From Lysobacter gummosus (lineage in GTDB: Bacteria; Pseudomonadota; Gammaproteobacteria; Xanthomonadales; Xanthomonadaceae), in the NCBI RefSeq assembly GCF_001442805.1, contig NZ_CP011131.1:5146001-5210000 (forward strand): 64,000 nucleotides of DNA. Direction: 5' to 3'. The notes beneath the pieces were generated by a model that worked only from the letters and a program-made list of their open reading frames with translations, searched no databases and was not told the DNA's origin. The position numbers and the translations under genes were made by a program. Position 1 is the first letter of the stretch. The number at the start of each line of letters is the position of its first letter. Positions 8,937 through 38,461 of the stretch are shown in pieces.

Positions 8937-8946
8937 GCGTCGATGT

Positions 8947-9966: not shown

Positions 9967-10195
9967 GCGGTTTTCTCGGAATGGGTTAGTGTCGCGCGCC
10001 GTTGCGGCGCGGGCTGGGCGGGGATGCGTGACTCTCGGTGTCATGTCCCGGGGACACGGTATCAGGTGGGGCTTGGGGCTGGGAGCGGGCTGGGGTCAAG
10101 TTGGCCGGTGCGGCTTGGCGCGGAGGCGTCGCGACCGGGTCGATTAAACTGCCTAAATATCAATTACTTAAGGCCATCGCCTCGAACAAGTTCGT

Positions 10196-10229
10196 GGGCC
10201 GGCGGAATTCCTCCTGCTCGGTTTATTGT
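10196..10229 (+). promoter_or_regulatory. Candidate promoter of the FAH-TRAP operon
   Basis: The 16-mer GGGCCGGCGGAATTCC (10196-10211) is followed after 12 bases by TATTGT (10224-10229). The same 16-mer at 46896 is followed after exactly 12 bases by TATAAT. The upstream element may be an extended or alternative -35 box. A LacI-like operator begins two bases downstream. I see no gene in the rest of the 9967-10294 gap; it includes a G-rich stretch near 10070-10095. Confidence 0.45.
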
Positions 10230-10230
10230 C

Positions 10231-10246
10231 AATGACACCGGTTTCC
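10231..10246. promoter_or_regulatory. LacI-type operator upstream of FAH-TRAP genes
   Basis: AATGACACCGGTTTCC is centred on the palindromic core ACCGGT, with the central CG typical of LacI-family operators. It differs by one base from AATGACACCGGTTACC at 15295-15310, upstream of kduI. It sits just after the candidate -10, where a bound repressor would block initiation. The likely binder is the LacI-family protein encoded at 14068. Confidence 0.7.
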
Positions 10247-10294
10247 TATACAACTTGTTCCATCAGAAATCGCGTTCCGAAGGACCGCCCCGGC

Positions 10295-11131
10295 ATGGAT
10301 AAACACCCGTTCGACGACTCTTTCGACCCGGCCGCCGTAGCGGCGCGCCTGGTCCTGGCGCGGCGGACGGCCGAAGCCTTGCCGGTCTATCCCGGCCCGT
10401 TGCCGCGCAGCCTGGACGAGGGCTATCGCGCCCAGGACCGGGCGATCGCGCAGTGGGGCAGCGAGGTGGCCGGCTGGAAAGTCGGGCGCATTCCGGAAAG
10501 TTGGGAACAGCGCCTGGGCGAAGACCGTCTGGTCGGGCCGATCTTCGCCGAGGCGGTGCAGCACGTCGCCGACGGACAGGCCGGCCGGTTCGCGGTGATC
10601 GAGCGCGGCTTCGCCGCGGTCGAGGCCGAATTCGTGTTCGAGCTGGGCCACGACGCCCCGCCCGGGCAACTGGATTTCAGCCACGCCCAGGCCGCCGCGC
10701 TGGTGTCCGCGTTGTCGATCGGCATCGAACTGGCCGGCAGCCCGATGCCGATGATCAACGCGCTGGGCCCGCCGGTGGTGGTGTCGGACTTCGGCAACAA
10801 CGCCGGCCTGATCGTCGGCCCGCGCATCGCCGCCTGGCAGTCGCTGGCCGACCACGAGCTGACCTGCGAGACCTTCATCGACGAACGCAGCGTCGGCCGC
10901 GGCGGCGCGGCCTCGATTCCCGGCGGTCTGCTCGCGGCGCTGGCGTTCGCGCTGACGCGCTGCGCGCGGCGCGGCCATCCGCTCAAGGCCGGCATGTACG
11001 TGACCACGGGCGCGGCGACCGGCATCCACGACATCCTTGCTGGACAGCGTTCGCGTATTTCCTTCGGCCGTTGGGGCAGTCTGCATTGCGAAACGGTGCC
11101 GGCCCGCGGCATCGCGGGGGCGATCGCATGA
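10295..11131 (+). CDS. Fumarylacetoacetase-fold hydratase/hydrolase (2-keto-4-pentenoate hydratase-like)
   Basis: A 278-residue FAH-superfamily enzyme. The metal-binding acidic pair appears in VEAEFVFELG, and other family elements are SIGIELAGSPMP, SDFGNNAGLIVGP and the C-terminal VTTGAATGIHDI. Relatives hydrate 2-oxopent-4-enoate or cleave 2,4-diketo-3-deoxy sugar acids. Being the first gene of a TRAP operon in a Kdu/Kdg island, it more likely acts on a keto-deoxy sugar acid than on an aromatic ring-cleavage product; that is inference. The start is the ATG at 10295, preceded by AAGGA. The stop overlaps the next start (ATGA). Confidence 0.78.
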   Translation: MDKHPFDDSFDPAAVAARLVLARRTAEALPVYPGPLPRSLDEGYRAQDRAIAQWGSEVAGWKVGRIPESWEQRLGEDRLVGPIFAEAVQHVADGQAGRFAVIERGFAAVEAEFVFELGHDAPPGQLDFSHAQAAALVSALSIGIELAGSPMPMINALGPPVVVSDFGNNAGLIVGPRIAAWQSLADHELTCETFIDERSVGRGGAASIPGGLLAALAFALTRCARRGHPLKAGMYVTTGAATGIHDILAGQRSRISFGRWGSLHCETVPARGIAGAIA

Positions 11132-12120
11132 GCACACGCCGCGAATTTCTCCGCGGCCTGGGCGCCGCCGGCATCGCCGCCGCGGCGCCGTCGGCGCTGT
11201 GGGCCGAGGACGGACGCCGCCTGCTCACCGCCACCGATGTCCACGTCAAGGACTATCCGACGGTCGCGGCGATCGAATGGATCGGCCAGCAATTGCAGCA
11301 GGCCACCGGCGGCCGCCTGGGCTTGCGCATGTATCACTCCGGGCAACTGGGGCGCGAGTCGGAAGCCATCGACATGGCGCGCTTCGGCGCCATCGACATC
11401 ACCCGCGTCTACAGCGGCGCGCTCAACAACGCATTTCCACTGACCCAGGTGCTGTCGCTGCCGTACGTGTTCGACTCGGTGGCGCATCTGCGCCGCGCGC
11501 TGGACGGCGGCGTCGGCGCGCAGGTGCTGCGCGGCTTCGCTTCGCGCGAACTGGTCGGACTGGCGATCTACGACTGCGGCGCGCGCTGTTTCTACAACAC
11601 GCGCAAGCCGATCCGCACCCCGGCCGACATGCACGGATTGAAGTTCCGCGTGCCGTCCTCGGACATCTTCATGCGCATGATCCGCCTGCTCGGCGGCAAT
11701 CCCACACCGCTGGCCTACGGCGAAGTGTTTTCCGCGCTGCAGACGCATCTGATCGACGGCGCCGAGAACAATCTGCGCAGCTTCCACTCCAGCCGCCAGT
11801 TCGAGGCCGCGCATTACTGGTCGCAAAGCGCGCACTCCTATGCGCCGGACGTGCTGCTGATGTCCAGGCGCAGTTTCGATTCCCTGCGCGCAGGCGACCG
11901 CGAGTTGCTGCTCGACCTGGCGCGCAGGTCGGTGACCGTGATGCGTCAGCGCTGGGACGAATCGGAAACCAGCGCACGCGCGGCCCTGGTCGCCGCCGGC
12001 GTGCGCATGAACGAATGCGACCTGCCCGCGTTCCGCGCCGCGGTCGCGCCGCTGCTGTCCGACTACCACCGCGTGCCGGCGCTGGAAGCGCTGTACCGCG
12101 ATGTCCGCTCCCTGGCTTGA
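11128..12120 (+). CDS. dctP: TRAP transporter solute-binding protein (DctP family)
   Basis: A 330-residue periplasmic substrate-binding protein. It starts MSTRREFLRGLGAAGIAAAA, a twin-arginine (RREFLRG) signal ending near SALWA, so it is probably exported folded by Tat. The DctP fold is shown by WIGQQLQQATGGRLGLRMYHSGQLG, by FNTRKPI-like FYNTRKPIRTPADMHGLKFRVP, and by an arginine (in KFRVP) expected to bind the carboxylate. Context points to a uronate or keto-deoxy acid as ligand. It overlaps the FAH gene by four bases and is followed by the two permease genes. Confidence 0.9.
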   Translation: MSTRREFLRGLGAAGIAAAAPSALWAEDGRRLLTATDVHVKDYPTVAAIEWIGQQLQQATGGRLGLRMYHSGQLGRESEAIDMARFGAIDITRVYSGALNNAFPLTQVLSLPYVFDSVAHLRRALDGGVGAQVLRGFASRELVGLAIYDCGARCFYNTRKPIRTPADMHGLKFRVPSSDIFMRMIRLLGGNPTPLAYGEVFSALQTHLIDGAENNLRSFHSSRQFEAAHYWSQSAHSYAPDVLLMSRRSFDSLRAGDRELLLDLARRSVTVMRQRWDESETSARAALVAAGVRMNECDLPAFRAAVAPLLSDYHRVPALEALYRDVRSLA

Positions 12121-18789: not shown

Positions 18790-19224
18790 GTGTTCAAACG
18801 AGTTTTGATGGTTTGCGTAGGCAACATCTGCCGCAGTCCGACCGCGGAAATGTTGCTGCGCCATGAGTTGCAAGGTCGGGATGTCACCGTAGAATCCGCC
18901 GGTCTTGGCGCCTTGGCGGGTCATCCGATCGACGCTACAGCACAGGCTGTGCTGGAAGGACATGGATTGAGTGGGCAATCCCATGTCGCGAGACAGATCG
19001 ACCGCACGATGATCGATGCGGCCGATCTGATACTGACGATGGAGCCATGGCAGATCGATGCCGTGCTCCGGATTTCCCCACACGCGCGAGGCAAGACCTA
19101 TCTACTAGGCAAATGGCTGGACAACACCAGCATTCCGGATCCATACCGGCAATCGCGCAGCGCGTTCGAACAGGCCTATCAGCTGATCAGCTCGGGGGTG
19201 AGCAGCTGGAGGGCCTATCTGTGA
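18790..19224 (+). CDS. wzb: Low-molecular-weight protein-tyrosine phosphatase (Wzb-like)
   Basis: A 144-residue phosphatase that would dephosphorylate the tyrosine kinase encoded next. The P-loop CVGNICRSPTAE (Cys9 to Arg15, the CX5R motif) and the acid loop DPYRQS near residue 118 are intact. The start is a GTG at 18790 (MFKRVLMVC). It lies 36 bases before the wzc-like gene, the standard order in Wzx/Wzy polysaccharide loci. Confidence 0.93.
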   Translation: MFKRVLMVCVGNICRSPTAEMLLRHELQGRDVTVESAGLGALAGHPIDATAQAVLEGHGLSGQSHVARQIDRTMIDAADLILTMEPWQIDAVLRISPHARGKTYLLGKWLDNTSIPDPYRQSRSAFEQAYQLISSGVSSWRAYL

Positions 19225-19260: not shown

Positions 19261-21489
19261 ATGTCGGCAGCCCCCACGACGCCCGGTCCGTACCAGGACA
19301 GAAGCAACGATGAGATAGACCTGGCCGCGCTGCTGGGGACGTTGCTCGATCACAAATGGCTGATCGTCAGCGTCACCTCGATCGGTTTCGTGCTCGCCGT
19401 CGCTTATGCGCTGATCGCCTCGCCGGTGTACCAGGCCAATGCGATGGTGCAGGTGGAGTCCAATGCCCCGACCCTGCCCGGCCTGACCGCGGTCACCCAG
19501 GCGCTGACCGATTCGGCGCCGCAGGCGGTGACCGAGATCGCGCTGCTGACCTCGCGCTCGGTGGTCGGCAAGGCGGTGCAGGATCTCAAGCTGGATGTGC
19601 AGATCGAGCCGGTCCGCTTCGTGCTGATCGGCGAACTGATGGCGCGCCGCTATCAGCCGACCCGCCCGGGCGACGTGGCTTCGCCGTGGCTCGGCCTCAA
19701 CAGCTACGGCTGGGGCGGCGAAAGCCTGCACGTGGCGCAGCTCACCGTCACCGACGAACTGGTCGCCAAGCCGCTGACCCTGGTCGTCGGCGAGGCCGGC
19801 AGCTACCGCCTGTACGACGAAGACGACACCCAGCTGCTCAGCGGCAAGGTCGGCGAAACCGCCACCGGCGGCGGCGTGAGCCTGCAAGTCAAGGACATGG
19901 CCGCCAACCCGGGGATGCGCTTCGAGATCACTCAGCTCTCGCGCCTGGCGATCATCACCGCGCTGCAGAACAACCTGATCGCCACGGAAAAAGCGAAGGA
20001 CTCCGGCATCCTGCAGCTGAGCTACCAGCTCGGCGATCCGGACCTGGCCGCGCAGACGCTCGATGCGATCACCCGCCAGTACACCAAGCAGAACGTCGAA
20101 CGCAATTCCGCCGAAGCCGCCAACAGCCTGAAGTTCGTCAACGGGCAGTTGCCCAAGACCCGGCGCGACCTGGAAAAGGCCGAGCAGGCCCTGGCCAAGT
20201 ACCAGGAGCAGGCGCATACGGTCGATATCACCCTGGATGCGCAGTCGCTGCTCGACCAGGTCGTGGCGCTGGATACCAGCATCTCGCAGTTGAAGATGCA
20301 GCAGGCCGAGGTCAGCCGCCGCTTCACGCCGCAACATCCGGCCTACAAAGCCTTGATGTCGCAGCTGGGCGAACTGGAATCGCGCAAGCAGCAGATCAAC
20401 GACCGCATCAGCGTGCTGCCGCAGACCCAGCAGGAACTGCTGGGCCTGACCCGCGAAGTGCAGGTCAGCACGCTCACCTACACCAACCTGCTCAATCAGG
20501 CGCAGCAGCTGGATATCGCCCGCGCCGGCACGGTCGGCAACGCCCGCGTCGTCGACAAGTCGGTGGTGGACATCAGCCAGCCGGTCAAGCCCAAGCGCCT
20601 GCTGATCGTGATGATCGGCACCTTCGTCGCCGGTTTCCTGGCGGTGGCCTGGGTGTTCCTGCGCCAGATGCTCAGCCGCGGCGTCGAAGACGTGAAGGAG
20701 ATCGAGCAGCTCGGCCTGCCGATCTACGCCTCGATTCCGATGAGCGACTTCCAGCGCGACCATCACAAGCTCGGCCGCAAGCTGCAGAGCAACGGCACCC
20801 GCCTGGACAAGCCGCATCTGCTCGCGCTCGACGCGCCCAACGATCTGGCGATCGAGGCCATGCGCAGTCTGCGCACCGCGCTGCACTTCGCCCGCATGGA
20901 AGCGAACAACAACATCCTGATGGTTTGCGGCGCCAGCCCGGGCGCCGGCAAGACCTTCGTGTCCACCAACCTGGCCGCGGTGATCGCGCAGGGCGGACAG
21001 CGCGTGCTGCTGATCGACGGCGACCTGCGCCGCAGCACGCTGCACAAGGTGCTGGGCCAGGACCCGCACGACGGCCTGTCGGATCTGCTGATCGGCCGCA
21101 TCGACGTGAAGACCGCCACCCGCACCACCGCCATCCCCGGCCTGGACTTCATTCCGCGCGGCGAAGCGCCGCCCAATCCGTCCGAACTGCTGATGCGCCC
21201 GAACCTGGGCGTGCTGTTGAAGATGGCCTCGCAGCAGTACGACCTGGTCATCATCGATACGCCGCCGATCCTCGCGGTCACCGATGCGGCGATCATCGGC
21301 CGCCATGCCGCCACCAGCATCATGGTGGTGCGCTTCGGCCTGAATCCGCCCAAGGAGCTGTCGATGGCGATTCAGCGTTTCGAACAGAACGGCATCGATC
21401 TCAAGGGCGCGGTATTCAACGCCGTCGAACGCCGTCACGACACCAACTACGCATACGGTTATGAATACCGGGCGACGCCGGAGAAGTGA
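19261..21489 (+). CDS. wzc: Polysaccharide co-polymerase / bacterial tyrosine kinase (Wzc-like)
   Basis: A 742-residue inner-membrane protein. The N-terminal Wzz domain has a membrane helix at about residues 36-58 and a second near 448-470 after a proline-rich ISQPVKPKR stretch; a coiled-coil periplasmic region lies between. The C-terminal BY-kinase domain shows Walker A GASPGAGKT (about 557-565), Walker A' LLIDGDLRRS and Walker B VIIDTPP, and ends in a tyrosine cluster (NYAYGYEY). Cycles of autophosphorylation and Wzb action control polymer length and export. Confidence 0.95.
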   Translation: MSAAPTTPGPYQDRSNDEIDLAALLGTLLDHKWLIVSVTSIGFVLAVAYALIASPVYQANAMVQVESNAPTLPGLTAVTQALTDSAPQAVTEIALLTSRSVVGKAVQDLKLDVQIEPVRFVLIGELMARRYQPTRPGDVASPWLGLNSYGWGGESLHVAQLTVTDELVAKPLTLVVGEAGSYRLYDEDDTQLLSGKVGETATGGGVSLQVKDMAANPGMRFEITQLSRLAIITALQNNLIATEKAKDSGILQLSYQLGDPDLAAQTLDAITRQYTKQNVERNSAEAANSLKFVNGQLPKTRRDLEKAEQALAKYQEQAHTVDITLDAQSLLDQVVALDTSISQLKMQQAEVSRRFTPQHPAYKALMSQLGELESRKQQINDRISVLPQTQQELLGLTREVQVSTLTYTNLLNQAQQLDIARAGTVGNARVVDKSVVDISQPVKPKRLLIVMIGTFVAGFLAVAWVFLRQMLSRGVEDVKEIEQLGLPIYASIPMSDFQRDHHKLGRKLQSNGTRLDKPHLLALDAPNDLAIEAMRSLRTALHFARMEANNNILMVCGASPGAGKTFVSTNLAAVIAQGGQRVLLIDGDLRRSTLHKVLGQDPHDGLSDLLIGRIDVKTATRTTAIPGLDFIPRGEAPPNPSELLMRPNLGVLLKMASQQYDLVIIDTPPILAVTDAAIIGRHAATSIMVVRFGLNPPKELSMAIQRFEQNGIDLKGAVFNAVERRHDTNYAYGYEYRATPEK

Positions 21490-22010: not shown

Positions 22011-24368
22011 ATGATGAAAGAACAGTTCGTCATCGCGTGCGCCCTGACGTTCGTGGTCACCAGCATCGCGATGTACGCGATGTACCCGGTCGCCGGGCAG
22101 CTCGGTCTGATCGACCGGCCGAACGCCCGCAAACAACATAAGGGCCACATTCCCGTCATCGGCGGGATCAGCTTCTTTCTCGGCCTGCTCGCCGGCGCCC
22201 TCTACCTGGGCCTGGCCGATCGCTTCGCGGTCTGCCTGATCGCCACCTCCAGCCTGATCGTGGTCACCGGCGCGATCGACGACGCGAAAGACCTCAGCGT
22301 GCGCGCGCGGCTGCTGATCCAGACCATCGCGGTCGGCCTGATGATTTCCGGCAGCGGCGTATACCTCAACGACCTGGGCAATCTGTTCGGCACCGGCGCG
22401 ATCCGCCTGGGCTGGATCGGCGTTCCGGTCACGGTGATCGCGGTGGTCGGCCTGATCAACGCCTTCAACATGCTCGACGGCATCGACGGCCTCGCCGGCA
22501 GCATGGCGATGGTCGGCATCGGCGCGATCTTCCTGTTCGACAACGGCGGCGTGCTGTCCAAGGGCGCGCTGCCCTTGATGCTGCTGTTGTTCGTCGCGCT
22601 GGTTCCGTACCTGTTCGTCAACCTGGGCGGGATGAACGAGCGCAAGATCTTCATGGGCGACGCCGGCAGCATGCTGATCGGCTATTTGACCGCGTGGAGC
22701 CTGATCTACCTGAGCCAGCGCGGCGCGACCCGCATCGATGCGGCCGAGGCGCTGTGGTGCATCGCCCTGCCGGTGTTCGAGACGCTCACCGTCATGTACC
22801 GCCGGGTCAGCAAGGGCCTGTCGCCGTTCAAGCCCGACCGCCAGCATCTGCACTACATCCTGCTCGACCACCAGCGCTCGCCCAAGGCCGCGCTGATGAC
22901 CATCGTCGGCATCGCCTGCGCGCTCACCGCGGTGGGTTACTCGCTGCGCGAGCTGCCGGTCGCGGTCGGCCTGCTCGCGTTCTTCTTCGCCATGGCCGTC
23001 TATTCGCTGGCGCTGGCCCACGGCGACAAGCTCAAGCGCCTGCGCGGCATGTCGGGCGGATCGGACACGCCGGAACTGGCGTTCGCGCCGGAAGGCTCGG
23101 TGCCGCTGAAGACCACGCCGGCGCCGGCTACCGCCTATGCGCGCAACAACCTCGCGGGCGAATTCGCCCCGCATCCGCTGGCCACGCCGGCCAACGCCGC
23201 CATGTCGCAGCCATCGCGCGTGATCAAGACCCTGTGCGTGTTCGGCACCCGTCCGGAGGCGATCAAGATGGCGCCGCTGGCGAAGATGCTGGCGCAAGAC
23301 CCGCGCTTCGATGCGCGCGTGTGCGTGACCGGCCAGCACCGGCAGATGCTGGACCAGGTGCTGAACCTGTTCGACCTGCAGCCGGACTTCGATCTCAACA
23401 TCATGAAGCCCAAGCAGGACCTGACCGACGTCACCACCGCGATCCTGACCGGCATGAAGCAGGTGCTGTCCGAGCTCAAGCCCGACGTGGTGCTGGTGCA
23501 CGGCGATACCTCCACCACCATGGCGACCACGCTGGCCGCGTACTACCAGCAGATTCCGGTGGCGCACGTCGAAGCCGGCCTGCGCACCGGCAACCTATAC
23601 TCGCCGTGGCCGGAAGAGGCCAACCGCAAGCTCACCGGCGCGCTGGCGGCGATGCATTTCGCGCCGACCACGCTGTCGAGCCAGAACCTGCTCGACGAAG
23701 GCATTCCGACCGAACGCATCGCCGTCACCGGCAACACCGTGATCGACGCGCTCAAGGAAGTGCTGGTGCGCATCGACCGCACGCCGGCGCTGCGCAACGA
23801 AGTCGCCTCGCAATTCAGCTTCCTCGATCCGCAGCGGCGCATCGTGCTGGTCACCGGTCATCGCCGCGAAAGCTTCGGCGGCGGCTTCGAGCGCATCTGC
23901 CACGCCTTGCGCGACGCCGCGCTGCGCCATCCGGATGTCGATATCGTCTATCCGATGCACCTCAACCCGCAGGTGCGCGAGCCGGTCAACCGCCTGCTCA
24001 CCGGCATCACCAACGTCCATCTGATCGAGCCGCTGGATTACCTGCCCTTCGTCTACCTGATGAACAAGGCCTACATCATCCTCACCGATTCGGGCGGCAT
24101 CCAGGAAGAAGCGCCGTCGCTGGGCAAGCCGGTGCTGGTGATGCGCGACACCACCGAGCGGCCCGAAGCGGTCGCCGCCGGCACGGTGAAGCTGGTCGGC
24201 ACCGATCGCCAGTTGATCGCCGACGGCATCAGCGAGCTGCTCACCAACCGCGCGGCGTACGAGGCGATGAGTTTCGCCCACAACCCTTACGGCGACGGCT
24301 TGGCCTGTCAGCGCATCGTCGAAGCCCTGGCCAGTTTCAACCGCGAAGACTCGCTGCTCGCCGCCTGA
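22011..24368 (+). CDS. Fused WecA-like UndP-GlcNAc-1-P transferase and WecB-like UDP-GlcNAc 2-epimerase
   Basis: One uninterrupted 785-residue frame with two enzymes. Residues 1-340 form a polytopic membrane glycosyl-1-phosphate transferase: [10 protein letters not shown] (catalytic aspartates), [21 protein letters not shown] and the cytoplasmic PDRQHLHY histidines, as in WecA. A proline/alanine-rich linker follows (about 345-400). Residues from about 403 are a full non-hydrolysing epimerase: [48 protein letters not shown] and [16 protein letters not shown]. Together they would start lipid-linked repeat synthesis and make UDP-ManNAc. The ATG at 22011 is used; a TTG at 21996 is possible. An internal ATG at 23202 lacks a ribosome site. 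Confidence 0.9.
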
Positions 24369-24475: not shown

Positions 24476-25732
24476 ATGAGTTTCGACACCGTCTCGGTCA
24501 TCGGCCTGGGTTACATCGGCCTCCCCACCGCCGCCGCTTTCGCCGCCGTGCGCAAGCAGGTCATCGGCATCGACGTGAACCGGAATATCGTCGATACGAT
24601 CAACCGCGGCGAGATCCATATCGTCGAGCCCGATCTCGACGTGGCGGTACGCGCGGCGGTCTCGGGCGGATACCTGCGCGCCTCGATCCAGCCCGAATCG
24701 GCCGACGCCTATCTGATCGCGGTGCCCACGCCGTTCAAGAACGACCACGAGCCGGACCTGCGCTACATCGAAGCGGCGGCCAAGGCGCTGGCGCCGGTGC
24801 TGCGCAAGGGCGACCTGGTAGTGCTGGAATCCACCTCGCCGGTCGGCGCGACCGAACAGCTGGCGCAGTGGCTGGCCGAAGCGCGTTCGGACCTGAGCTT
24901 TCCGCAGGACGCCGGCGAAGACGCCGACGTCAACGTCGCCCACTGCCCCGAGCGCGTGCTGCCGGGCCATGTGATGCGCGAGCTGATCGAGAACGACCGC
25001 GTCATCGGCGGCATGACCCCGCGCTGCTCGGCGCGCGCCTGCGAGCTGTACAAGAGCTTCGTGCGCGGCGAGTGCATCGTCACCAACGCGCGCACCGCCG
25101 AGATGTGCAAGCTGACCGAGAACGCGTTCCGCGACGTCAACATCGCCTTCGCCAACGAGCTGTCGATCATCTGCGACAAGCTCGGCATCAACGTGTGGGA
25201 TCTGGTGCAGCTGGCCAACCGCCATCCGCGCGTCAACATCCTGCAGCCCGGCCCCGGCGTCGGCGGCCACTGCATCGCGGTGGACCCGTGGTTCATCGTC
25301 GACAGCGCGCCGGAAGAGGCGCGGCTGATCCGCACCGCGCGCGAGGTCAACAACAGCAAGCCGCGCTGGGTGATGGACAAGGTCGATGCCGCCATCGCCG
25401 ATGCCAAGGCCGACGGCAAGCAGGACAAGGACCTGACCATCGCCGTGTTCGGCCTGTCGTTCAAGCCCGACATCGACGACCTGCGCGAAAGCCCCGCGCT
25501 CGATATCGCCATCGAACTGGCCGCGCGCCACCCGGGCAAGGTGCTCGCGGTCGAGCCGCACATCGATGCGCTGCCGGAGAAGCTCAAGTCGCCGAACCTG
25601 ATCCTGGTGGACTTCCCCACCGCCAGCGCGCAGGCCGACATCGGCCTGCTGCTGGTCGATCACAAGCCGTTCCGGGAGCAGGCCGCGCCCACGCACCTGC
25701 GCCTGGTCGATACCAAGGGCATCTGGGTCTGA
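24476..25732 (+). CDS. wecC: UDP-N-acetyl-D-mannosamine dehydrogenase
   Basis: A 418-residue UDP-sugar dehydrogenase that oxidises UDP-ManNAc to UDP-ManNAcA. The NAD loop is VIGLGYIGLPTAA, the catalytic cysteine lies in GPGVGGHCIAVDP, and KLTENAFRDVNIAFANELS is the helix typical of the ManNAc-type enzymes. FGLSFKPDIDDLRESPA marks the C-terminal domain. It follows the epimerase fusion directly, giving two consecutive steps. GGAG lies five bases before the ATG. Confidence 0.93.
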   Translation: MSFDTVSVIGLGYIGLPTAAAFAAVRKQVIGIDVNRNIVDTINRGEIHIVEPDLDVAVRAAVSGGYLRASIQPESADAYLIAVPTPFKNDHEPDLRYIEAAAKALAPVLRKGDLVVLESTSPVGATEQLAQWLAEARSDLSFPQDAGEDADVNVAHCPERVLPGHVMRELIENDRVIGGMTPRCSARACELYKSFVRGECIVTNARTAEMCKLTENAFRDVNIAFANELSIICDKLGINVWDLVQLANRHPRVNILQPGPGVGGHCIAVDPWFIVDSAPEEARLIRTAREVNNSKPRWVMDKVDAAIADAKADGKQDKDLTIAVFGLSFKPDIDDLRESPALDIAIELAARHPGKVLAVEPHIDALPEKLKSPNLILVDFPTASAQADIGLLLVDHKPFREQAAPTHLRLVDTKGIWV

Positions 25733-25763: not shown

Positions 25764-27056
25764 ATGATCCGGCGACTGATCACCACCGCCAGTCTTTCGG
25801 CCGTGAGCGCCATGGCCTCGCGCGGGGCGATCTTCGCCGGCGTGCTGCTGGTCGCCGGTTTGCTGGGGCCGCGGGCGTTCGGCCAGTTCACCCTGATCCA
25901 GACCACGGCGCTGTTGTTCACCACGTTCTGCGCGCTCAGCCTGGGGCAGATGGCGACCAAGATCGTCGCCGAAGCCCTGCAGGGCTCGCGCGAGCGCATG
26001 GGGGTGGCGTGGTCGGTGTCGTACGGTTCGGCGTTGTTGATCTCGCTGGTGTTCGCGGTGGCGATCGTGGCGCTGTCGCCGCTGGTGGCGCGCTACGTCG
26101 GACACGACGCCGCGCTCACGCCGGTGTACGCCAGCTCCAGCCTGCTGGTGTTGGCGGGATTTCTCACCGCGATCCAGAACGGCGTCGCCCTGGCCGTGGG
26201 CCGGGTCAAGGAACAGGCCTGGGCCAATCTGCTCAGCGCGCCGATCGCCTTCGCGATCATGGTGCTGGCGGCGTTTCAGCGCGATCTGCATTGGGCGATG
26301 TACGGCTACATCGCCTCGCAGATCGTGATCGCCGTCGGCCAGGAGCGCAGCCTGCGCCGCTACCGCCGCGAACACGGCCTGAAGTTGTCGCTGCGCACGA
26401 CCACGCGCGCGGACTGGTCGGTGCTGTGGCGGCTGGGCCTGCCTTCGTCGCTGGCCGGACTGCTGACCGTGCCGGCGATGTGGCTGGTGATGGTGATGCT
26501 CTCGCACACCGCCGACGGCGCCACCGACCTGGGGCATTTCGCCCTCGGCAATCAGGCCCGCTCGATCCTGCTGTTCGGCATCGGCGTGGTCGCCAACGCG
26601 GCGCTGCCGATGCTGTCCTCGGCCCTGGCCCAGGGCGATCGCCACGGCGCGTCGACGGTGCTGCGTCATTCGATGGCGCTGCTGCTGGCGATCACCGGCG
26701 CCATCGCCTTACTGGCCGCGCTGGCGGCGCCGCCGTTGATCCACGCGCTGGCCCCGGCCTACGCCGGCTCGGTGGAACCGCTGCAATGGCTGCTGGCTTC
26801 GGTGGTGGCGACCGCGCCGACCACGATCCTGATGCGCAAGGCCACCGCCGACGGCCGCCCGTCGATTCTGCTCTACGGCAACGCGGTGTTCTGCGTGGTC
26901 CTGCTCGCCACCGCCGCGGTCGCCCTGCACATGCACGGCGGCGCGACGGGGCTGGCGTTCGCGTACTTCCTCGCCTCGCTGCTGCAGCTGCTGACTTTCG
27001 CCCTGTTCAACCGAAACGAGCTGCGCTGGAAGGCGCTGGCCCGGAGCAATTCATGA
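25764..27056 (+). CDS. wzx: Repeat-unit flippase (Wzx-like, MOP superfamily)
   Basis: A 430-residue protein with about 12 hydrophobic segments in the pattern of polysaccharide flippases, starting MIRRLITTASLSAVSAMASRG. It should move the lipid-linked repeat unit across the inner membrane before polymerisation. Wzx proteins share little sequence, so the call rests on topology, length and position between sugar-nucleotide genes and the polymerase. Its stop overlaps the next start (ATGA). Confidence 0.83.
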   Translation: MIRRLITTASLSAVSAMASRGAIFAGVLLVAGLLGPRAFGQFTLIQTTALLFTTFCALSLGQMATKIVAEALQGSRERMGVAWSVSYGSALLISLVFAVAIVALSPLVARYVGHDAALTPVYASSSLLVLAGFLTAIQNGVALAVGRVKEQAWANLLSAPIAFAIMVLAAFQRDLHWAMYGYIASQIVIAVGQERSLRRYRREHGLKLSLRTTTRADWSVLWRLGLPSSLAGLLTVPAMWLVMVMLSHTADGATDLGHFALGNQARSILLFGIGVVANAALPMLSSALAQGDRHGASTVLRHSMALLLAITGAIALLAALAAPPLIHALAPAYAGSVEPLQWLLASVVATAPTTILMRKATADGRPSILLYGNAVFCVVLLATAAVALHMHGGATGLAFAYFLASLLQLLTFALFNRNELRWKALARSNS

Positions 27057-28128: not shown

Positions 28129-29460
28129 ATGGCGATCCTCTACTTCGTGTTCTTCATCGGCCTGGTGATGCTGGCGTTCACGCGCATCGGCGGCCGGCTC
28201 GACCGTTTGTTCGTCAATCCGATCCTGGTCTTCATCCTCACCGTCGCCTTCATCTACGGCTTCATTCCGTGGCTGAAGGACTTGCATCAGGTCCAGACCT
28301 ACCCGTTCTACTACTCCTTCGACGCCAAGCTGGCGGCGCTGATGTTCTCGCTGGTGTTCTGCCTGTCCGGCATCGGCGGCTACGCCTTCGCCGGCGGCCT
28401 GAGCCGGCCGGTGCTGCCGCAGGTGCGCAGCCTGACCCGGCGCGAGCGCCGCCGCGTGCTGGTGCTGGTCGGGATTCCGGCGATGTGCGCGGTGATCTAC
28501 CTGGCGCGCACGGTGGCCAGTTACGACCTGGCCGATTACATGAAGGACCGCATCATGATCCGCCGCGGCATGGGCCCGGCGGTGGTGCTTGCGTTCGCGG
28601 CGATCTGCTACTGCGCGATCCTGGTCACCAACTACCTCGCCTCGCGCCGCACCGACGGCCCGCCGCTGGCGCGCTGGCGATTGCTGCCGATCGGCGGCGT
28701 GGTGCTGGTGGTGGCGGTGGCGTTCGTGGCGATGGGCAACCGCAACTTCGTCTTCATCCTGATCGCGATCCTGCTGCTGGCTTCGCTATCGATCTACCGC
28801 GGCGAAATCGGCCGCGCGCTGATGCTGCTGCCGCTGCTGCTGATCGTCGCCCTGGGCCTGTCGGCCTGGGCCAAGGTGCGCACCACGCTCGACAGCGCCG
28901 ACAGTTCCAGCCTCACCAGCGAAGGCCCAGTGCAGTTGCTGGTGTACGGCCTCAACGGCGCCTTCGGCAATGCCGAGAACCTGACCTGGCTTGCGCAGAA
29001 CGATTCGCGCTGGGACTTCGTCTACGGCGAGACCGTGTTCGCCGCCGCGGTCAATCCGATCCCGCGCGCGCTGTGGCCGGACAAGCCCTTCGGCGGCGGC
29101 CCGGCGCTGCGCAACATGATCTATCCGGGCAGCTACACCCTGGAAGGCGAAAAACTCACCTCCTACACCACCGGCCTGCCGACCGAGGGCTACATGAACT
29201 TCGGCCTGTTGGGACTGATCGCGTTCGGCGCGGTCAACGGCGCCTGCCTGGCCGGCATTCGCAAGGTCTATGCGCGCCGGCGCGTGGTCACGCCGGTCGG
29301 CGTGGTGATCTACAGCTTCTCGATCTTCATGTTCTCTTCCGGATTTCTCTACATGGAACTGCTCGGCGGCTGGAGCCGTTATTTCATCACCCTGCTGTTG
29401 CTGTACGCCGTCACCTGGGTCGGCAACCGCCCCATCCGCATGCGCGGAGCCATGGCATGA
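28129..29460 (+). CDS. wzy: Repeat-unit polymerase (Wzy-like)
   Basis: A 443-residue integral membrane protein with roughly 11-12 hydrophobic segments and one large extracytoplasmic loop (about residues 245-355) rich in charged and aromatic residues (ENLTWLAQNDSRWDFVYGET and NPIPRALWPDKPFGGGPALRN). The stretch NPIPRALWPDKP resembles motifs of O-antigen/oligosaccharide polymerases. It would polymerise the flipped repeats under Wzc control. AGGAGG lies ahead of the ATG. Confidence 0.82.
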   Translation: MAILYFVFFIGLVMLAFTRIGGRLDRLFVNPILVFILTVAFIYGFIPWLKDLHQVQTYPFYYSFDAKLAALMFSLVFCLSGIGGYAFAGGLSRPVLPQVRSLTRRERRRVLVLVGIPAMCAVIYLARTVASYDLADYMKDRIMIRRGMGPAVVLAFAAICYCAILVTNYLASRRTDGPPLARWRLLPIGGVVLVVAVAFVAMGNRNFVFILIAILLLASLSIYRGEIGRALMLLPLLLIVALGLSAWAKVRTTLDSADSSSLTSEGPVQLLVYGLNGAFGNAENLTWLAQNDSRWDFVYGETVFAAAVNPIPRALWPDKPFGGGPALRNMIYPGSYTLEGEKLTSYTTGLPTEGYMNFGLLGLIAFGAVNGACLAGIRKVYARRRVVTPVGVVIYSFSIFMFSSGFLYMELLGGWSRYFITLLLLYAVTWVGNRPIRMRGAMA

Positions 29461-30554
29461 ACGCGATCATCCTGGGACAAGGCAATCCCTATCTGAAGAA
29501 TCCGTACCTGAGCAAGTTGTCGAAGGTGCTCGACAGCGCGCGCATCCCGTACGAATTCTGGATCTGGAGCCGCGACAAGCAAAACGCCGACCTGCCCAAG
29601 GTCAAGGTGCTGCTGAGCTTCGGCTCGTGGGGCGGCGGCGCGGTCAACGCGCTGGGCTACGCGCTGTGGATGGCGTGGCTGACCGTGCGCGTGTTCTTCC
29701 AGCCGCGCGCCGGCGTGTACTTCTGCTCGCGCCTGGACGCGGCGCTGCCCTGCGCCATCGTCGCCTCGCTGCGGCGCTGCCGGTTCGTGTTCCTGGATCG
29801 CGACAAGCTGTCCAAGAGCTACGCCTGGCCGGCGCCGGTCAAGCGCGCGATCGAAGCCATCGAGCGCTTCATCGGCCGCAAGGCCTCGCTGCACGTGGTC
29901 CCGGGCGCCTCGCGCGCCGACGGCAACGACGGCGACAACGTGCGGATCGTGCGCAACACCCCGCACAGCGACGTGATCGCCCGCGCACGGCAGATGGCGG
30001 CGGCGCGGCCTTATCGCGACGGCCGCCTGCGGGTGCTCGTCAGCGGCCTGATCTCGCCCGAGCGCGGCGCGCGGATGATGCGCGAAGCGATGGAAGCCAC
30101 CGCCGGCCGCATCGAGTTCGTCGGCGCCGGGCGCCTGCTCGGCGAGGACGCGCAGAGCCTGGCCCAGCAGATGGGCGCGAACTACCGCGGCATCGTCAGC
30201 AACGAAGACGCGCTGGCGATGCTGCTCAGCGCGGACGTGGTGCTGGCCTTCTACGATCCGGCGCTGGAGATCAACCGACTGGCCGAGCCGAACAAATGGT
30301 TCGACTGCGCGGCGCTGGAAATCCCCTTCTTCACCAATCCCGGCCTGTCCACCTCCGCCCCGTTCGAACAGGCCCAGGCCTGTTTCCTGGTCGAGTACGG
30401 CAACGGCGCGCGGCTGGCGCAAGACCTGCTGCGCATCGACGCCGACCGCTCGCTGCTGGACCAGCGCCGCGACGGCCTGCGGCAACTGCGCTACGAAGCC
30501 TGGGACACGGCGATGGCGCGCGTGGTCGCCGAATGCGCGCAGCTGCCGTCATGA
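29457..30554 (+). CDS. Glycosyltransferase (GT4-like, GT-B fold)
   Basis: A 365-residue cytoplasmic protein that overlaps wzy by four bases. The N-terminal half holds a Rossmann-like start (MNAIILGQGNPYLKNPYLSKL) and the C-terminal half has RLRVLVSGLISPERGARMM, FVGAGRL, and the donor-site region VVLAFYDPALEINRLAEPNKWFD, in which the glutamate before PNK fits the EX7E position. Lack of strong identity to a named enzyme leaves donor and acceptor open. It likely adds one sugar to the lipid-linked repeat. Confidence 0.72.
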   Translation: MNAIILGQGNPYLKNPYLSKLSKVLDSARIPYEFWIWSRDKQNADLPKVKVLLSFGSWGGGAVNALGYALWMAWLTVRVFFQPRAGVYFCSRLDAALPCAIVASLRRCRFVFLDRDKLSKSYAWPAPVKRAIEAIERFIGRKASLHVVPGASRADGNDGDNVRIVRNTPHSDVIARARQMAAARPYRDGRLRVLVSGLISPERGARMMREAMEATAGRIEFVGAGRLLGEDAQSLAQQMGANYRGIVSNEDALAMLLSADVVLAFYDPALEINRLAEPNKWFDCAALEIPFFTNPGLSTSAPFEQAQACFLVEYGNGARLAQDLLRIDADRSLLDQRRDGLRQLRYEAWDTAMARVVAECAQLPS

Positions 30555-30634: not shown

Positions 30635-32782
30635 ATGCAACAAGTCCTGCAAAACCTGCGCGACGGCAGCACTGAAGTCGCCGACGTCCCCGCTCCCGCG
30701 CTGCGCCGCGGGCATCTGCTGATCCGCAGCCACGTCACCCTGGTTTCGGCCGGCACCGAGCGCATGCTGGTCGAATTCGGCAAGGCCAACATGCTGCAGA
30801 AGGCGCGGCAGCAACCGGACAAGGTGCGCATGGTGCTGGAGAAGATCCGCACCGACGGCCTGGCGCCGACGCTCGACGCGGTGCGCAGCAAGCTCGATCA
30901 ACCCCTGGCGCTGGGCTATTGCAACGTCGGCACGGTGATCGGCATCGGCCCGGGCGTGACCGGGTTCGAACTCGGCGACCGCGTCGCCTCCAACGGCAAG
31001 CACGCCGAAGTGGTCGCGGTGCCGGTCAACCTGTGCGCGAAGATTCCGGACGAAGTGGACGACGAGTCGGCCGCCTTCACCGTGCTCAGCGCGATCGCGC
31101 TGCAAGGCATCCGCCTGGTCCAGCCCACCCTCGGCGAAACCGTGGTGGTCACCGGCCTGGGCCTGATCGGCCTGATCACCGTGCAATTGCTGCGCGCGCA
31201 CGGCTGCCGCGTGCTCGGCATCGATTTCGATCCGGCCAAACTCGCGCTGGCGCGCAGCTACGGCGCGCAGACCGTGGACCTGTCCAAGGGCGAAGACCCG
31301 CTGGCCGCCGCGCAGACCTTCTCGCGCGGTCGCGGCGTCGATGCGGTGCTGATCACCGCCTCGACCAAGAGCAACGAACCGGTCTCGCAGGCCGCGCACA
31401 TGTGCCGCAAGCGCGGCCGCATCGTCCTGGTCGGCGTCACCGGCCTGGAGCTGTCGCGCGCGGATTTCTACGAGAAAGAACTGTCGTTCCAGGTCTCGTG
31501 CTCGTACGGCCCGGGCCGTTACGACGCCTCCTATGAGGAACGCGGCAACGATTATCCGGTGGCCTTCGTGCGCTGGACCGAGCAACGCAACTTCGAAGCG
31601 GTGCTGGACATGATGGCCAGCCGCGCGGTCGATGCCAGCGCATTGGTCAGCCATCGCTACGGCATCGCCGACGCCGAACAGGCTTACAGCGTGCTCGGCG
31701 GCGGCGAACCCTCGCTGGGCATCATGCTCGACTATCGCCGCGGCGAAGAAATGCCCGACGACCTGATCCGGCGCAAGGTGCCGCTGCCGGCCAAGCCGGC
31801 GGTGCGCGAAGTCGCCGGCGATGCCGACGGCGCCGGTGTGGCCTTCATCGGCGCCGGCAACTACGCCGGCCGCGTGCTGATTCCGGCCTTCGTCAAATCC
31901 GGCGCCAAGCTGCATACCGTGGTGACCAACAACGGCGTCGGTAGCGTCCACTTCGGGAAGAAGTACGGCTTCCGCAACGCCAGCACCGATACCGACGCGC
32001 TGCTGCGCGACGCCAGCGTCGGCTCGGTGGTGATCGCGACCCAGCACGGCAGCCACGCCGAACTGACCTTCAAGTCCTTGCGCCGCGGCAAGCACGTGTT
32101 CGTCGAAAAGCCGCTGTGCCTGACCCTGGAAGAACTGCAGACCATCGAGAAGGCGCACGGCGAGCAATCGGTCTACGGCGCCCCGCCGGTGCTGATGGTC
32201 GGCTTCAACCGCCGCTTCGCCCCGCAGGTGAAGAAGATGCACCAGCTGCTGGCCGGCGTGCGCGAACCCAAGTCGTTCGTGATGACGGTCAACGCCGGCG
32301 CGATTCCGGCCGATCACTGGACCCAGGACCCGCAACTCGGCGGCGGCCGCCTGATCGGCGAGGCCTGCCACTTCGTCGATCTGCTGCGCTTCCTCGCCGG
32401 CTCGCCGATCGTCGGCCATCAGCTCACCGCGGTCGGCGATGCCAGCGGCATCCGCAGCGACCGGGTCAGCTTCACCCTGAGCTTCGCCGACGGTTCCTTC
32501 GGCACGGTGCATTACCTCGCCAACGGCCATAAGAGCTTCCCGAAGGAACGCCTGGAAGTGTTCACCGCCGGCCGCGTGCTGGCGCTGGACAACTTCCGCA
32601 AGCTGCGCGGTTACGGCTGGCCGGGTTTCAGCAAAATGAATCTGTGGAGCCAGGACAAGGGCCAGGCCGCCTGTGCCGCCGCCTTCATGCAGGCGGTGCA
32701 AGGCAAGTCGCCGCCGCCGATCCCGCCGGAGGAAATCTTCGAAGTGGCGCGGGTCACCATCGAACTGGACGCCTCGGTCTGA
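30635..32782 (+). CDS. Two-domain oxidoreductase: zinc-less MDR fused to Gfo/Idh/MocA
   Basis: A 715-residue protein with two dehydrogenase modules. Residues 1-370 match medium-chain dehydrogenases (GYCNVGTVIGIGPGVTGFELGDRV, then VVTGLGLIGLITVQLL), but the usual zinc-binding GHE is absent. Residues 390-715 are a Gfo/Idh/MocA domain (VAFIGAGNYAGR and the EKPLCLT active-site lysine). I recall the arrangement as an annotated but uncharacterised bi-domain oxidoreductase found in polysaccharide loci. It may produce or edit an unusual sugar nucleotide. It lies 80 bases after the glycosyltransferase and 40 before the heparinase-like gene. Confidence 0.85.
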   Translation: MQQVLQNLRDGSTEVADVPAPALRRGHLLIRSHVTLVSAGTERMLVEFGKANMLQKARQQPDKVRMVLEKIRTDGLAPTLDAVRSKLDQPLALGYCNVGTVIGIGPGVTGFELGDRVASNGKHAEVVAVPVNLCAKIPDEVDDESAAFTVLSAIALQGIRLVQPTLGETVVVTGLGLIGLITVQLLRAHGCRVLGIDFDPAKLALARSYGAQTVDLSKGEDPLAAAQTFSRGRGVDAVLITASTKSNEPVSQAAHMCRKRGRIVLVGVTGLELSRADFYEKELSFQVSCSYGPGRYDASYEERGNDYPVAFVRWTEQRNFEAVLDMMASRAVDASALVSHRYGIADAEQAYSVLGGGEPSLGIMLDYRRGEEMPDDLIRRKVPLPAKPAVREVAGDADGAGVAFIGAGNYAGRVLIPAFVKSGAKLHTVVTNNGVGSVHFGKKYGFRNASTDTDALLRDASVGSVVIATQHGSHAELTFKSLRRGKHVFVEKPLCLTLEELQTIEKAHGEQSVYGAPPVLMVGFNRRFAPQVKKMHQLLAGVREPKSFVMTVNAGAIPADHWTQDPQLGGGRLIGEACHFVDLLRFLAGSPIVGHQLTAVGDASGIRSDRVSFTLSFADGSFGTVHYLANGHKSFPKERLEVFTAGRVLALDNFRKLRGYGWPGFSKMNLWSQDKGQAACAAAFMQAVQGKSPPPIPPEEIFEVARVTIELDASV

Positions 32783-32822: not shown

Positions 32823-34469
32823 ATGAGCATCGCCTCGCGATTGCCGCGCATGTGGCACACCGTGCGTTATCTGCGCCCGGTGCAGATCTACGGCCGCGCC
32901 TGGCACCGGCTGCACCGGCCGCGCATCGAGCACGCGCCGGCGCCCGCGCCGGCCGCCACCGACACGCGTTGGACCGCCTGCGCGCGCAATCCCTCGATGC
33001 TGGGCGCGAACCGCTTCCGTTTCTTGAACGACGAACGCGAGCTGGCCGGCAACGACTGGAACAGCACCAAGCTGCCCAAGCTGTGGCTGTACAACCTGCA
33101 TTACTTCGACGACCTCAACGCCGACGGCGCGTCGTCGCGCAGCCATTGGCATCGCGAGTTGATCGCGCGCTGGATCGCCGACAATCCGCCGGCCGGCGGC
33201 AACGGCTGGGAGCCGTACTGCCTGTCGCTGCGCATCGTCAACTGGATCAAATGGCGCTGCGCCGGGCAGGCCTTCGGCGATGCCGCCCGCGAGCGTTCGG
33301 CGCTGAACAGTCTGGCGATCCAAGTGCGTTTCCTGCGCCGGCGACTCGAACGCCATCTGCTCGGCAATCATCTGTGGGCCAACTACAAGGCGCTGCTGTT
33401 CGCCGGCGCGTTCTTCCAGGGCGCCGAAGCCGCGCGCTGGCGCACCGAAGGCTTGAACGGACTGCGCCGCGAGATCGACGAGCAGATCCTCGCCGACGGC
33501 GGCCACTTCGAACGCAGTCCGATGTATCACGCGATCCTGCTCGAAGACCTGCTCGACATGGTCCAGCTCGCGCGCCTGTTCCCCGAAGCGGTGCCGCACA
33601 CCGACGTGGCGCTGTGGCGCGACAAGGCCGGCGCGATGCTGCGCTGGCTCAGCGTGATGACCCATCCCGACGGCGGCATCGCCTTCTTCAACGACGCCGC
33701 GCTCGGCATCGCGCCGAACTTCGCCGAGCTGTCCGCCTATGCGCTCGCGCTCGGCATCGAAGCGCCGGAACCGTCCGACGAAGCCATGCAGCTGCTGCCG
33801 GATTCGGGCTACGCGCGTCTGCAATGCGGCGACGCGGTGGTGATCGCCGACGTCGGCGACATCGGCCCGGACTATCTGCCTGGCCACGCCCATGCCGATA
33901 CCTTGAGCTTCGAACTGTCGCTGCGTGGACGCCGGGTGCTGGTCAACGCCGGCACCTCGCGCTACGACATCGGCGCCGAACGGCTATGGCAGCGCGGAAC
34001 CTCCGCGCACAACACCATCGAGATCGACGGGCAGAATTCCTCCGAAGTGTGGAGCAGCTTCCGCGTCGCCCGCCGCGCTCGCGCATCGGCGGTCGAACAC
34101 GGCCACTTCGGCGAAGGCGCCTGGCTCGCCGCCTCGCACGACGGTTATCGGCGCCTGAAGGGCCGGCCGGTGCACCATCGCCGCTGGGTGCTGCAACCCG
34201 GCGCGCTGCGCATCGAGGACCGCATCGACGGCGCCTTCGATCGCGCCGTCGCGCGCTACCGCGTGCATCCGGATATCCGCATCGAAGATCACGCCCTGCA
34301 CCTGGATGCGAACTTCGGCCTGCGCTGGCGCATTGAGCCGGCGACCGAACGCACCGCGGCCAGCATGTATCACCCCGAATTCGGCCTCGGCCGCGCCTGC
34401 CGGGTCATCGAGGCGACGCTGGACCCGGCCGTCGGCAACGCGGTCGCCCTGTTCCTCTGGGATTGTTGA
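32823..34469 (+). CDS. Heparinase II/III-family (alginate lyase-like) protein
   Basis: A 548-residue protein with an N-terminal alpha/alpha toroid and a C-terminal beta-sandwich. Landmarks are LYNLHYFDDL, RHLLGNHLWANYKALLF, the tyrosine/histidine in ERSPMYHAILLED, and the family signature DYLPGHAHADTLSFEL with its histidines, followed by NAGTSRYDIG. No signal peptide is seen, so it may act in the cytoplasm or be exported differently. Members cleave uronate-containing polymers by beta-elimination. Within this locus it could trim or clear the nascent, ManNAcA-containing polymer. Confidence 0.82.
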   Translation: MSIASRLPRMWHTVRYLRPVQIYGRAWHRLHRPRIEHAPAPAPAATDTRWTACARNPSMLGANRFRFLNDERELAGNDWNSTKLPKLWLYNLHYFDDLNADGASSRSHWHRELIARWIADNPPAGGNGWEPYCLSLRIVNWIKWRCAGQAFGDAARERSALNSLAIQVRFLRRRLERHLLGNHLWANYKALLFAGAFFQGAEAARWRTEGLNGLRREIDEQILADGGHFERSPMYHAILLEDLLDMVQLARLFPEAVPHTDVALWRDKAGAMLRWLSVMTHPDGGIAFFNDAALGIAPNFAELSAYALALGIEAPEPSDEAMQLLPDSGYARLQCGDAVVIADVGDIGPDYLPGHAHADTLSFELSLRGRRVLVNAGTSRYDIGAERLWQRGTSAHNTIEIDGQNSSEVWSSFRVARRARASAVEHGHFGEGAWLAASHDGYRRLKGRPVHHRRWVLQPGALRIEDRIDGAFDRAVARYRVHPDIRIEDHALHLDANFGLRWRIEPATERTAASMYHPEFGLGRACRVIEATLDPAVGNAVALFLWDC

Positions 34470-34475
34470 GCTCTC

Positions 34476-35735
34476 ATGCGCATTCTTTTTCTATCGGACA
34501 ATTTCCCGCCCGAGGGCAACGCACCGGCCACGCGCACCTATGAGCACGCGGTGCGCTGGGTGCGCGCCGGGCATGAGGTGACCGTGATCACCTGCGCGCC
34601 CAACTTCCCCGAGGGCAAGTTGTTCGACGGTTACCGCAACGATTGGCGCAGCGTGGAAACCATCGACGGCATCCGCGTGGTGCGGGTCAAGACCTACATC
34701 ACCGCCAACGAAGGCTTCATCAAGCGCACCCTGGATTACTTGAGCTTCATGGCCGCCTCCACCGTCGCCGGCCTGTTCGAGCGCCGCCACGACGTGGTGG
34801 TGGCGACCTCGCCGCAATTCTTCTGCGCGCTGGGCGGTTGGATGCTGGCGCGGCTCAAGCGCCGGCCGTTCGTGTTCGAACTGCGCGACCTGTGGCCGGC
34901 GTCGATCACCGCGGTCGGCGCGATGAAACGCAGCCTGGCGATCCGCGTGCTGGAACGGCTGGAGATGTTCCTGTACCGCAGCGCGGATGCCATCATCCCG
35001 GTCACGCAGTCGTTCCGCGAGGAGCTGATCCATCGCGGCGTCGACGCCGGCAAGATCCACGTCGTGCTCAACGGAGTGGACCTGCAGCGCTACGTGCCGT
35101 GCGCGCGCGACACGGCGATGGCGCAACAGTACGATCTGGACGGACGCTTCGTGGTCGGCTACCTGGGCACCCACGGCATGGCGCACGGACTGGAAACGGT
35201 GGTCGATGCCGCGGAGAAACTCCGCCACGATCCGCGCATCGTGTTCTTCTTCGCCGGCAGCGGCGCCGAGCGCGCGCGGGTCGAGCAACTGGTGGCCGAG
35301 CGACAACTGGCGAACGTACGCATGATTCCGCGTCAGCCCAAGGAAATGATGCCCAAGCTGTGGGGGCTGTGCGACATCTCGCTGATTCCGCTGCGCGACA
35401 ACCCGGTGTTCGGCGGCGTGATTCCGTCCAAGCTGTTCGAAGGCATGGGCATGGGCATTCCGGCGTTGATGTCGCTGCCGCGCGGCGAAGCCACGCGCAT
35501 CGTCGAAAGCACCGGCTGCGGCTTGTGCGTCGCTCCGGAGAATGCGCAGGCCATGGCCGATGCGATCGCGCAGTTGGCCGGCGACCCCGAACGCCTGCAG
35601 CGCCTGCGCGCGGCAAGTATCGCCGCGGCGCCGGCGTATTCGCGCGATCGTCAGGCCGGATTGATGAGCGACGCGCTGCTGCGCCTGCTCGACGACGATA
35701 CTCGCGGCATGTTGCCGACTTCGAAAGGCTCGTAA
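34476..35735 (+). CDS. Glycosyltransferase family 4 (WbuB-like)
   Basis: A 419-residue GT4 enzyme. MRILFLSDNFPPEGNAPATRTYEHA, the basic TCAPNFPEGKLFDGY stretch, FELRDLWP, VLNGVD, VGYLGTHGMAHGLETVV and FGGVIPSKLFEGMGMGIP match the WbuB group, known for adding FucNAc-type sugars. The glutamate in SKLFEGMG is the expected EX7E donor residue. It starts seven bases after the heparinase-like gene. The donor sugar cannot be fixed from sequence. Confidence 0.9.
   Translation: MRILFLSDNFPPEGNAPATRTYEHAVRWVRAGHEVTVITCAPNFPEGKLFDGYRNDWRSVETIDGIRVVRVKTYITANEGFIKRTLDYLSFMAASTVAGLFERRHDVVVATSPQFFCALGGWMLARLKRRPFVFELRDLWPASITAVGAMKRSLAIRVLERLEMFLYRSADAIIPVTQSFREELIHRGVDAGKIHVVLNGVDLQRYVPCARDTAMAQQYDLDGRFVVGYLGTHGMAHGLETVVDAAEKLRHDPRIVFFFAGSGAERARVEQLVAERQLANVRMIPRQPKEMMPKLWGLCDISLIPLRDNPVFGGVIPSKLFEGMGMGIPALMSLPRGEATRIVESTGCGLCVAPENAQAMADAIAQLAGDPERLQRLRAASIAAAPAYSRDRQAGLMSDALLRLLDDDTRGMLPTSKGS

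Positions 35736-36628: not shown

Positions 36629-38461
<1,833 letters not shown>

Follow-up and report, generated by a model that had tools for sequence, protein, structure and literature searches.

An enzyme that initiates a polysaccharide chain and an enzyme that makes a sugar nucleotide are here encoded as one polypeptide. The locus lies on the forward strand of a 64,000-nucleotide stretch of the Lysobacter gummosus genome (hereafter the window, whose numbering we use throughout), where positions 22011 to 24368 translate into 785 residues without a stop. Pfam models recognize Glycos_transf_4 at residues 75-234 and Epimerase_2 at 426-773 of this protein, and NCBIfam assigns the second half to WecB, in line with the original prediction that WecA and WecB are read in one frame. 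We divide it into a first domain (residues 1-344; 22011..23042) that resembles WecA, a polyprenyl-phosphate GlcNAc-1-P transferase, as judged by PF00953, its catalytic residues and the helices of a structure model; a Pro/Ala-rich disordered linker (residues 345-403; 23043..23219), with low pLDDT and variability in relatives; and a WecB-type non-hydrolyzing UDP-GlcNAc 2-epimerase domain (residues 404-785; 23220..24365), supported by TIGR00236, its conserved residues and its fold. The transferase half scores 105 bits against a gathering score of 27 for PF00953, and is filed as WecA-like, with UDP-GlcNAc as its presumed sugar donor, because it falls short of the model for the WecA of the enterobacterial common antigen (ECA) pathway (TIGR02380; 275.8 bits versus a cut-off of 326.05). 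The second half is 66% identical to Escherichia coli WecB and scores 517.8 bits with TIGR00236, for which the curated cut-off is 210.15.

Both motif sets are complete, as had been predicted. The equivalents of E. coli WecA D35, D90, D91, D156, D159, R265, H279 and H281, which we take to be the residues that matter, are all in place in the first half, and HLHY stands where E. coli WecA reads HIHH in all 15 copies from the window's genus. The WecB half has the catalytic D95, E117, E131 and H213 and the substrate residues R10, K15, R135, S290 and E296 (E. coli numbering), and retains all six allosteric positions (Q38, H39, E41, Q65, R214 and H246 in E. coli WecB), with Gln in place of E41. This residue list was transferred by homology from Table 4 of the PaMnaA study, according to which most enzymes have Gln or Glu at the position of E41 (PMC11464976).

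A structure model of the whole protein, built on an alignment of 35 sequences (mean pLDDT 78.6, pTM 0.49), combines membrane helices, a segment at residues 340-401 whose pLDDT stays under 50, and a GT-B domain that superposes on E. coli WecB (1f6d_D) with a TMt of 0.94, an rmsd of 1.9 A and 67% identity. Eleven membrane helices were counted by hand on the model of the WecA half, in which D35, D90/D91, D156/D159, the FMGD loop and the HxH loop (E. coli numbers) share one side of the membrane. The C-terminus of this half is predicted to emerge on the same side as these catalytic loops, and a cytoplasmic WecB half is consistent with that placement. The linker, described beforehand as Pro/Ala-rich and about 55 residues long, measures 57 residues as cut for comparison and 59 as residues 345-403; it is disordered in the model, varies in both length (41-71 residues) and sequence across 18 intact loci, and contains neither of the lesions, a stop or a frameshift, that had been named as fatal to the idea of a single protein.

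An open frame of this length is by itself weak evidence since, at 67% GC, long open frames come cheaply; indeed, another forward frame across 22011-24368 has a single stop. The fusion is judged real because it is conserved among relatives. In a search of 60 relatives, a fusion free of stops and 71-98% identical extends across residues 1-785 or 2-785 in 14 of 19 congeners, as in the window's own genome, and of the remaining five congeners two have a degenerate version, discussed below, and three just a distant transferase match. A scan of named genomes contributes Lysobacter enzymogenes ATCC 29487, L. antibioticus 13-6 and HS124, Lysobacter sp. ISL-50, yr284 and Root690, and Luteimonas panaciterrae, L. 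aquatica and L. salinisoli, although most of these coincide with loci already counted. Among 297 sampled genomes of the window's family, at least 15 have the intact fusion. Over all searches, with duplicates removed, the same-architecture homologues amount to 17 distinct loci besides that of the window, making 18; 26 fused loci that duplicate a place under another locus identifier were left out of the counts. The nine catalytic and substrate residues of the epimerase and the six allosteric positions are retained in 18 of 18 intact loci, and the catalytic residues of WecA in all 54 fusions, intact and degenerate. On this genomic evidence the fusion is one protein in Lysobacter and some Luteimonas. 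When 250 genomes of the order, 369 of the class and 398 of the phylum were sampled, every listed two-domain match fell within the window's family, under strict E cut-offs and with at most two to four candidates scored per genome, a setting that divergent fusions may escape. A literature search by titles and the beginnings of abstracts, a coverage outside which most subscription papers lie, found no paper on a WecA-WecB fusion.

The genes around the intact fusion, all on the forward strand unless stated, place it in a polysaccharide cluster. Upstream are a wzb-like low-molecular-weight phosphotyrosine phosphatase gene (18790..19224), recognized by tblastn to degenerate-class homologues, one of them matching LMWPc, and wzc, coding for a chain-length determinant and tyrosine autokinase (19261..21489; WZC_N, GNVR and Wzz; TIGR01007 157.6 versus a cut-off of 108.05). 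The next gene downstream is, as anticipated, wecC for the UDP-N-acetyl-D-mannosamine dehydrogenase (24476..25732; PRK11064 equivalog, 731.6 versus 459), and it adjoins the fusion in all 17 genomes of the intact class. There follow genes for a wzx-like flippase (25764..27056; Polysacc_synt/MatE), a wzy-like repeat-unit polymerase (28129..29460; TIGR04370, 52.7 versus 40), a conserved 365-residue protein without a Pfam or NCBIfam match (29457..30554), which is a candidate glycosyltransferase for the ManNAcA step, a heparinase II/III-like protein (32841..34469; Hepar_II_III_C, 172.9 bits) and a WcaI-like GT4 glycosyltransferase under the WcaI cut-offs (34476..35735). The single open reading frame at 30635-32782 joins zinc-dehydrogenase and GFO/IDH/MocA domains, and is thus another two-enzyme fusion within the cluster. 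At the end of the cluster, on the reverse strand, lies glmS (36629-38461; TIGR01135, 857.9 bits versus 418.05), an early enzyme of UDP-GlcNAc supply.

In all nine distinct intact loci with long flanks the fusion is preceded by wzb and wzc and followed by genes for WecC, Wzx, the 29457-type protein and the 30635-type dehydrogenase, and wzy was detected in six of them. The combination of wzc with wzx-like and wzy-like genes near the fusion is that of a Wzx/Wzy-dependent polysaccharide cluster. It does not qualify as an ECA cluster, the window having no PF03808 match that could represent the ECA transferase WecG (GT26). Two PF03808 (WecG/TagA) matches occur elsewhere in the same genome, one under the cut-off at 1.49 Mb and one over it at 4.06 Mb (G000 C1:4062870-4063352, reverse strand); unlike in ECA, the latter lies outside the fusion cluster, more than 1 Mb away.

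We posit that in the intact form the WecA half would load GlcNAc-1-P onto undecaprenyl phosphate at the inner membrane, that the WecB half, on its flexible cytoplasmic linker, would epimerize UDP-GlcNAc to UDP-ManNAc, and that WecC would oxidize the latter to UDP-ManNAcA, feeding the same Wzx/Wzy polymer. That both activities are present is what we infer from the complete residue sets. Initiator and epimerase in one chain would draw on one UDP-GlcNAc pool, and UDP-ManNAcA would meet the lipid-linked GlcNAc at the next transfer. The coupling of chain initiation to precursor supply that had been suggested is a conjecture. Its classical version, with WecB channelling substrate to WecA, is ruled out on pathway grounds, because in ECA synthesis neither enzyme acts on the product of the other; each uses UDP-GlcNAc, and what they make comes together only in the step that follows.

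Phylogenetic trees of the two domains point to a single origin. These trees are quick searches without bootstraps; in that of WecB the stand-alone sequences were E. coli WecB, 28 from the same family and 20 of the 72 from outside it. In it, all 54 fused domains form one clade (SH-aLRT 100), within which the 36 degenerate domains form a nested clade of their own (100) on a stem of 0.93, and 27 of the 28 stand-alone WecBs from the family group in another clade. In the WecA tree the fused clade has a support of 91 and the degenerate clade 98. The two trees disagree on the placement of the degenerate clade, within the intact one or next to it, and, as it sits on a long branch, its nesting inside the Lysobacter fusions may be long-branch attraction. 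Both domain trees, as far as sequences can tell, show that the fusion arose once in the family. Recruitment of the fused WecB from the family's stand-alone WecBs is unsupported, given that 27 of the 28 cluster apart. We propose that the fusion arose from adjacent wecA and wecB genes; Kangiella sp. HZ709 (L039) has wecA, wecB and wecC as separate adjacent open reading frames (7995-9014, 9024-10145 and 10156-11418), plausibly the order before fusion.

A second class of the same fusion, spanning several genera, is found in at least 36 of the 297 sampled genomes of the family; its members are 38-46% identical to the window protein, aligning with it along the whole of that span or just the N-terminal portion. 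Their WecB halves are 26-37% identical to E. coli WecB (40% in L164, which is cut by a contig end and is counted among the 36, though not in the 35 of the column counts nor among the C-half losses described below). R10 is missing from every one of the 36, and D95, E117, E131 and H213 occur all four together in none. In stand-alone WecBs, by comparison, all nine residues are kept in 100 of 100, a set that includes the nearest matches and so leans toward close relatives, and from which sequences under 45% identity (including L026), the partial L027 and the duplicates L017, L018, L019, L131 and L133 were left out. TIGR00236 places 34 of the 36 degenerate domains under its cut-off. The two above it, L116 (G021; 230.9 bits) and L135 (G115; 229.7 bits), carry a warning for annotation, in that automatic procedures could call both active WecB. 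L135, which keeps D95, E117, E131, R135, S290 and E296, could be partly active; H213 is kept by L160-L162.

The setting of the degenerate gene differs as well. Its neighbors are wzb on one side, detected at E 1e-15 in 34 of 36 loci, and wzc on the other, detected in 35 of 36 with the exception located at a contig end; no match to wecC was found in its flanks. None of the 17 genomes of the intact class has a match over the WecB cut-off other than the fusion, and the window's own has no second TIGR00236 match. A stand-alone WecB over the cut-off is present in 11 of the 36 degenerate-class genomes, five of which also have wecC at E 1e-60. The other 25 have neither a stand-alone WecB over the cut-off nor wecC, with G139 and G278 among them possessing a WecB-family paralogue under it. 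No genome of 53 has both classes of fusion. In one degenerate locus wzc is followed by an asparagine-synthase-like gene, genes for two beta-helix proteins and a GT4 gene. A separate wecB-wecC pair (L168; G168, C1:223917-226377) in a degenerate-class genome appears to be a later acquisition, since its WecB groups with those of Pseudomonas and Burkholderiales (support 96) and not with those of its own family.

In seven degenerate loci (L113, L114, L115 and L155-L158) the C-terminal Rossmann half is missing in frame, the deletions starting near the border of the N- and C-domains. Six of the seven keep a final helix resembling the C-terminal one of WecB, such as DACARVADALANLR in L114; that of L113 was read by eye, as the alignment does not place it, and L158 ends in a shorter match. 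The N-domain of PaMnaA, residues 2-172, is the part with which the last helix associates (PMC11464976), which means that the deletion takes out nearly exactly the C-domain. The seven loci fall at four places on the WecB tree, where the joining of L113 is a possible long-branch error. The packing at the dimer interface of Staphylococcus aureus MnaA involves a helix near residue 76 (PMC4856313); its location in the N-domain implies that what is retained is the half with the dimer contacts.

Taking these observations together, we give a probability of about 0.7 to the joint reading, drawn from sequence comparison, that the intact protein is a bifunctional enzyme and the degenerate one a WecA with a non-catalytic module derived from the epimerase. 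On this reading, in the sister lineage the gene came to lie between wzb and wzc, wecC was gone, and the epimerase residues were probably lost together with their activity while the N-terminal Rossmann half was mainly kept; the direction of the move between the two contexts is our conjecture. The retention of a degenerate epimerase half suggests a role for the fused domain beyond making UDP-ManNAc: it might dimerize or anchor WecA, or relay a signal, perhaps from the Wzb/Wzc pair. Dimerization or gating of WecA is the version that we favor, and such a non-catalytic job may have been useful already in the intact fusion. Still more tentatively, at somewhat less than even odds, the initiator absorbed a metabolic enzyme, whose catalysis was lost first, along with wecC, and then, in several lineages, its C-domain though not the closing helix, leaving an N-domain that dimerizes or gates WecA under the tyrosine phospho-switch of Wzb and Wzc, whose genes flank it.

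The best-surviving alternative is that this is a plain operon fusion, devoid of coupling or extra role, and that its degenerate relatives are simply decaying. It is in keeping with a linker that is long, variable and disordered, with enzymes that are not consecutive, and with loss of the C half in several lineages. The rates of evolution bear on it in both directions. Fourteen pairs were picked by hand among near neighbors on the trees, several sharing a sequence so that not all are independent; in all 14 the NG86 dN/dS of the degenerate domain lies between 0.06 and 0.41, and in all 14 it exceeds that of its own WecA (0.02-0.30), if nearly equal in one (0.142 versus 0.140). Among intact pairs the order is the reverse, with WecB below WecA in eight of eight. 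The excess over WecA signifies relaxed constraint, under which slow decay is still possible. Nevertheless, ratios of this size show, at the level of sequence, that the degenerate domain is kept under purifying selection, albeit of a looser kind. Furthermore, neutral simulation to 0.5 substitutions per site yields a mean of 5.5 stops and 0.1% open frames, whereas there are no stops among the listed matches spanning both domains; these loci were chosen by open frames over both domains, so that broken copies may be missed. The N-half is the more constrained in nine of 12 pairs (medians 0.15 versus 0.25), the three exceptions all coming from one clade, and deletions that spare the last helix also suggest selection on the fold of the N-domain. 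We regard a plain operon fusion with mere decay as unlikely, if still deserving of weight.

A second alternative holds that the degenerate domain has acquired a new catalytic function, be it that of a GT-B glycosyltransferase or of an epimerase for a different nucleotide sugar, and that the protein is still bifunctional. It could draw on the persistence of R135 in 34 of 36 and of E296 in 23 of 28 full-length degenerate domains (hand count), on two copies that in Pfam match GT-B N-domains besides Epimerase_2, mostly under the gathering score, and on dN/dS values below 1. It is hard to reconcile, though, with the universal loss of R10, with the scarcity of polar positions that reach at least 85% conservation across the class, and with the seven of 36 loci that have dispensed with the entire C-terminal domain and thereby with half of the GT-B cleft; we consider it rather improbable.

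Concerning the window's organism itself, WecB might be made as a separate protein, either from the internal ATG at 23202..23204 (forward strand, residue 398), six codons ahead of the WecB domain, or by proteolysis of a linker that, being disordered, would be accessible to proteases. The original prediction had raised independent translation from this start as an objection to a fused product. However, the ATG is present in just six of the 18 intact loci and is absent from a sister sequence that is 98% identical, and no Shine-Dalgarno-like motif precedes it in any of the six, which speaks against this start. We consider a separate WecB, by either route, very unlikely. Finally, a sequencing or assembly artefact is ruled out by the occurrence of the same fusion in independent genomes.

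The preferred reading, of a bifunctional intact protein and a non-catalytic module in its degenerate relatives, can be set against several known systems. With the E. coli ECA genes the fusion shares, by homology, the two reactions, the catalytic residues and the presence of wecC beside wecB; it differs in that E. coli has separate wecA and wecB with wzzE between them, whereas here a single polypeptide is encoded in a Wzb/Wzc-type cluster. In staphylococci MnaA supplies TarO and TarA in trans, and MnaA and TarO, unlike the halves of the fusion, are separate proteins of wall teichoic acid synthesis (PMC4856313). A covalent union of a 2-epimerase domain with a second enzyme is also seen in the system of PMC4793188, in which the partner is a kinase, the pathway is that of sialic acid and the epimerase is distinct from the non-hydrolyzing enzymes. 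As proposed here, polysaccharide synthesis is controlled through the transferase that initiates it in two other systems, with CapM phosphorylated by the CapAB tyrosine kinase (PMC6441080) and EpsZ under the control of the dimer-promoting partner EpsW (PMC12802240); in contrast to the fusion, both transferases are monotopic, have their partner in trans and are without an epimerase-derived domain.

For CapM and EpsZ, control of the initiating transferase is exerted in trans; in this family it may be covalent. The family, with its outgroup, also offers a series of separate genes in the outgroup, an intact fusion, a domain without catalytic residues and a half-domain remnant, which permits a direct test of what use a fused enzyme is to its partner after losing its own activity. 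More generally, the fusion bears on the rationing of UDP-GlcNAc and undecaprenyl phosphate when cells begin a polymer.
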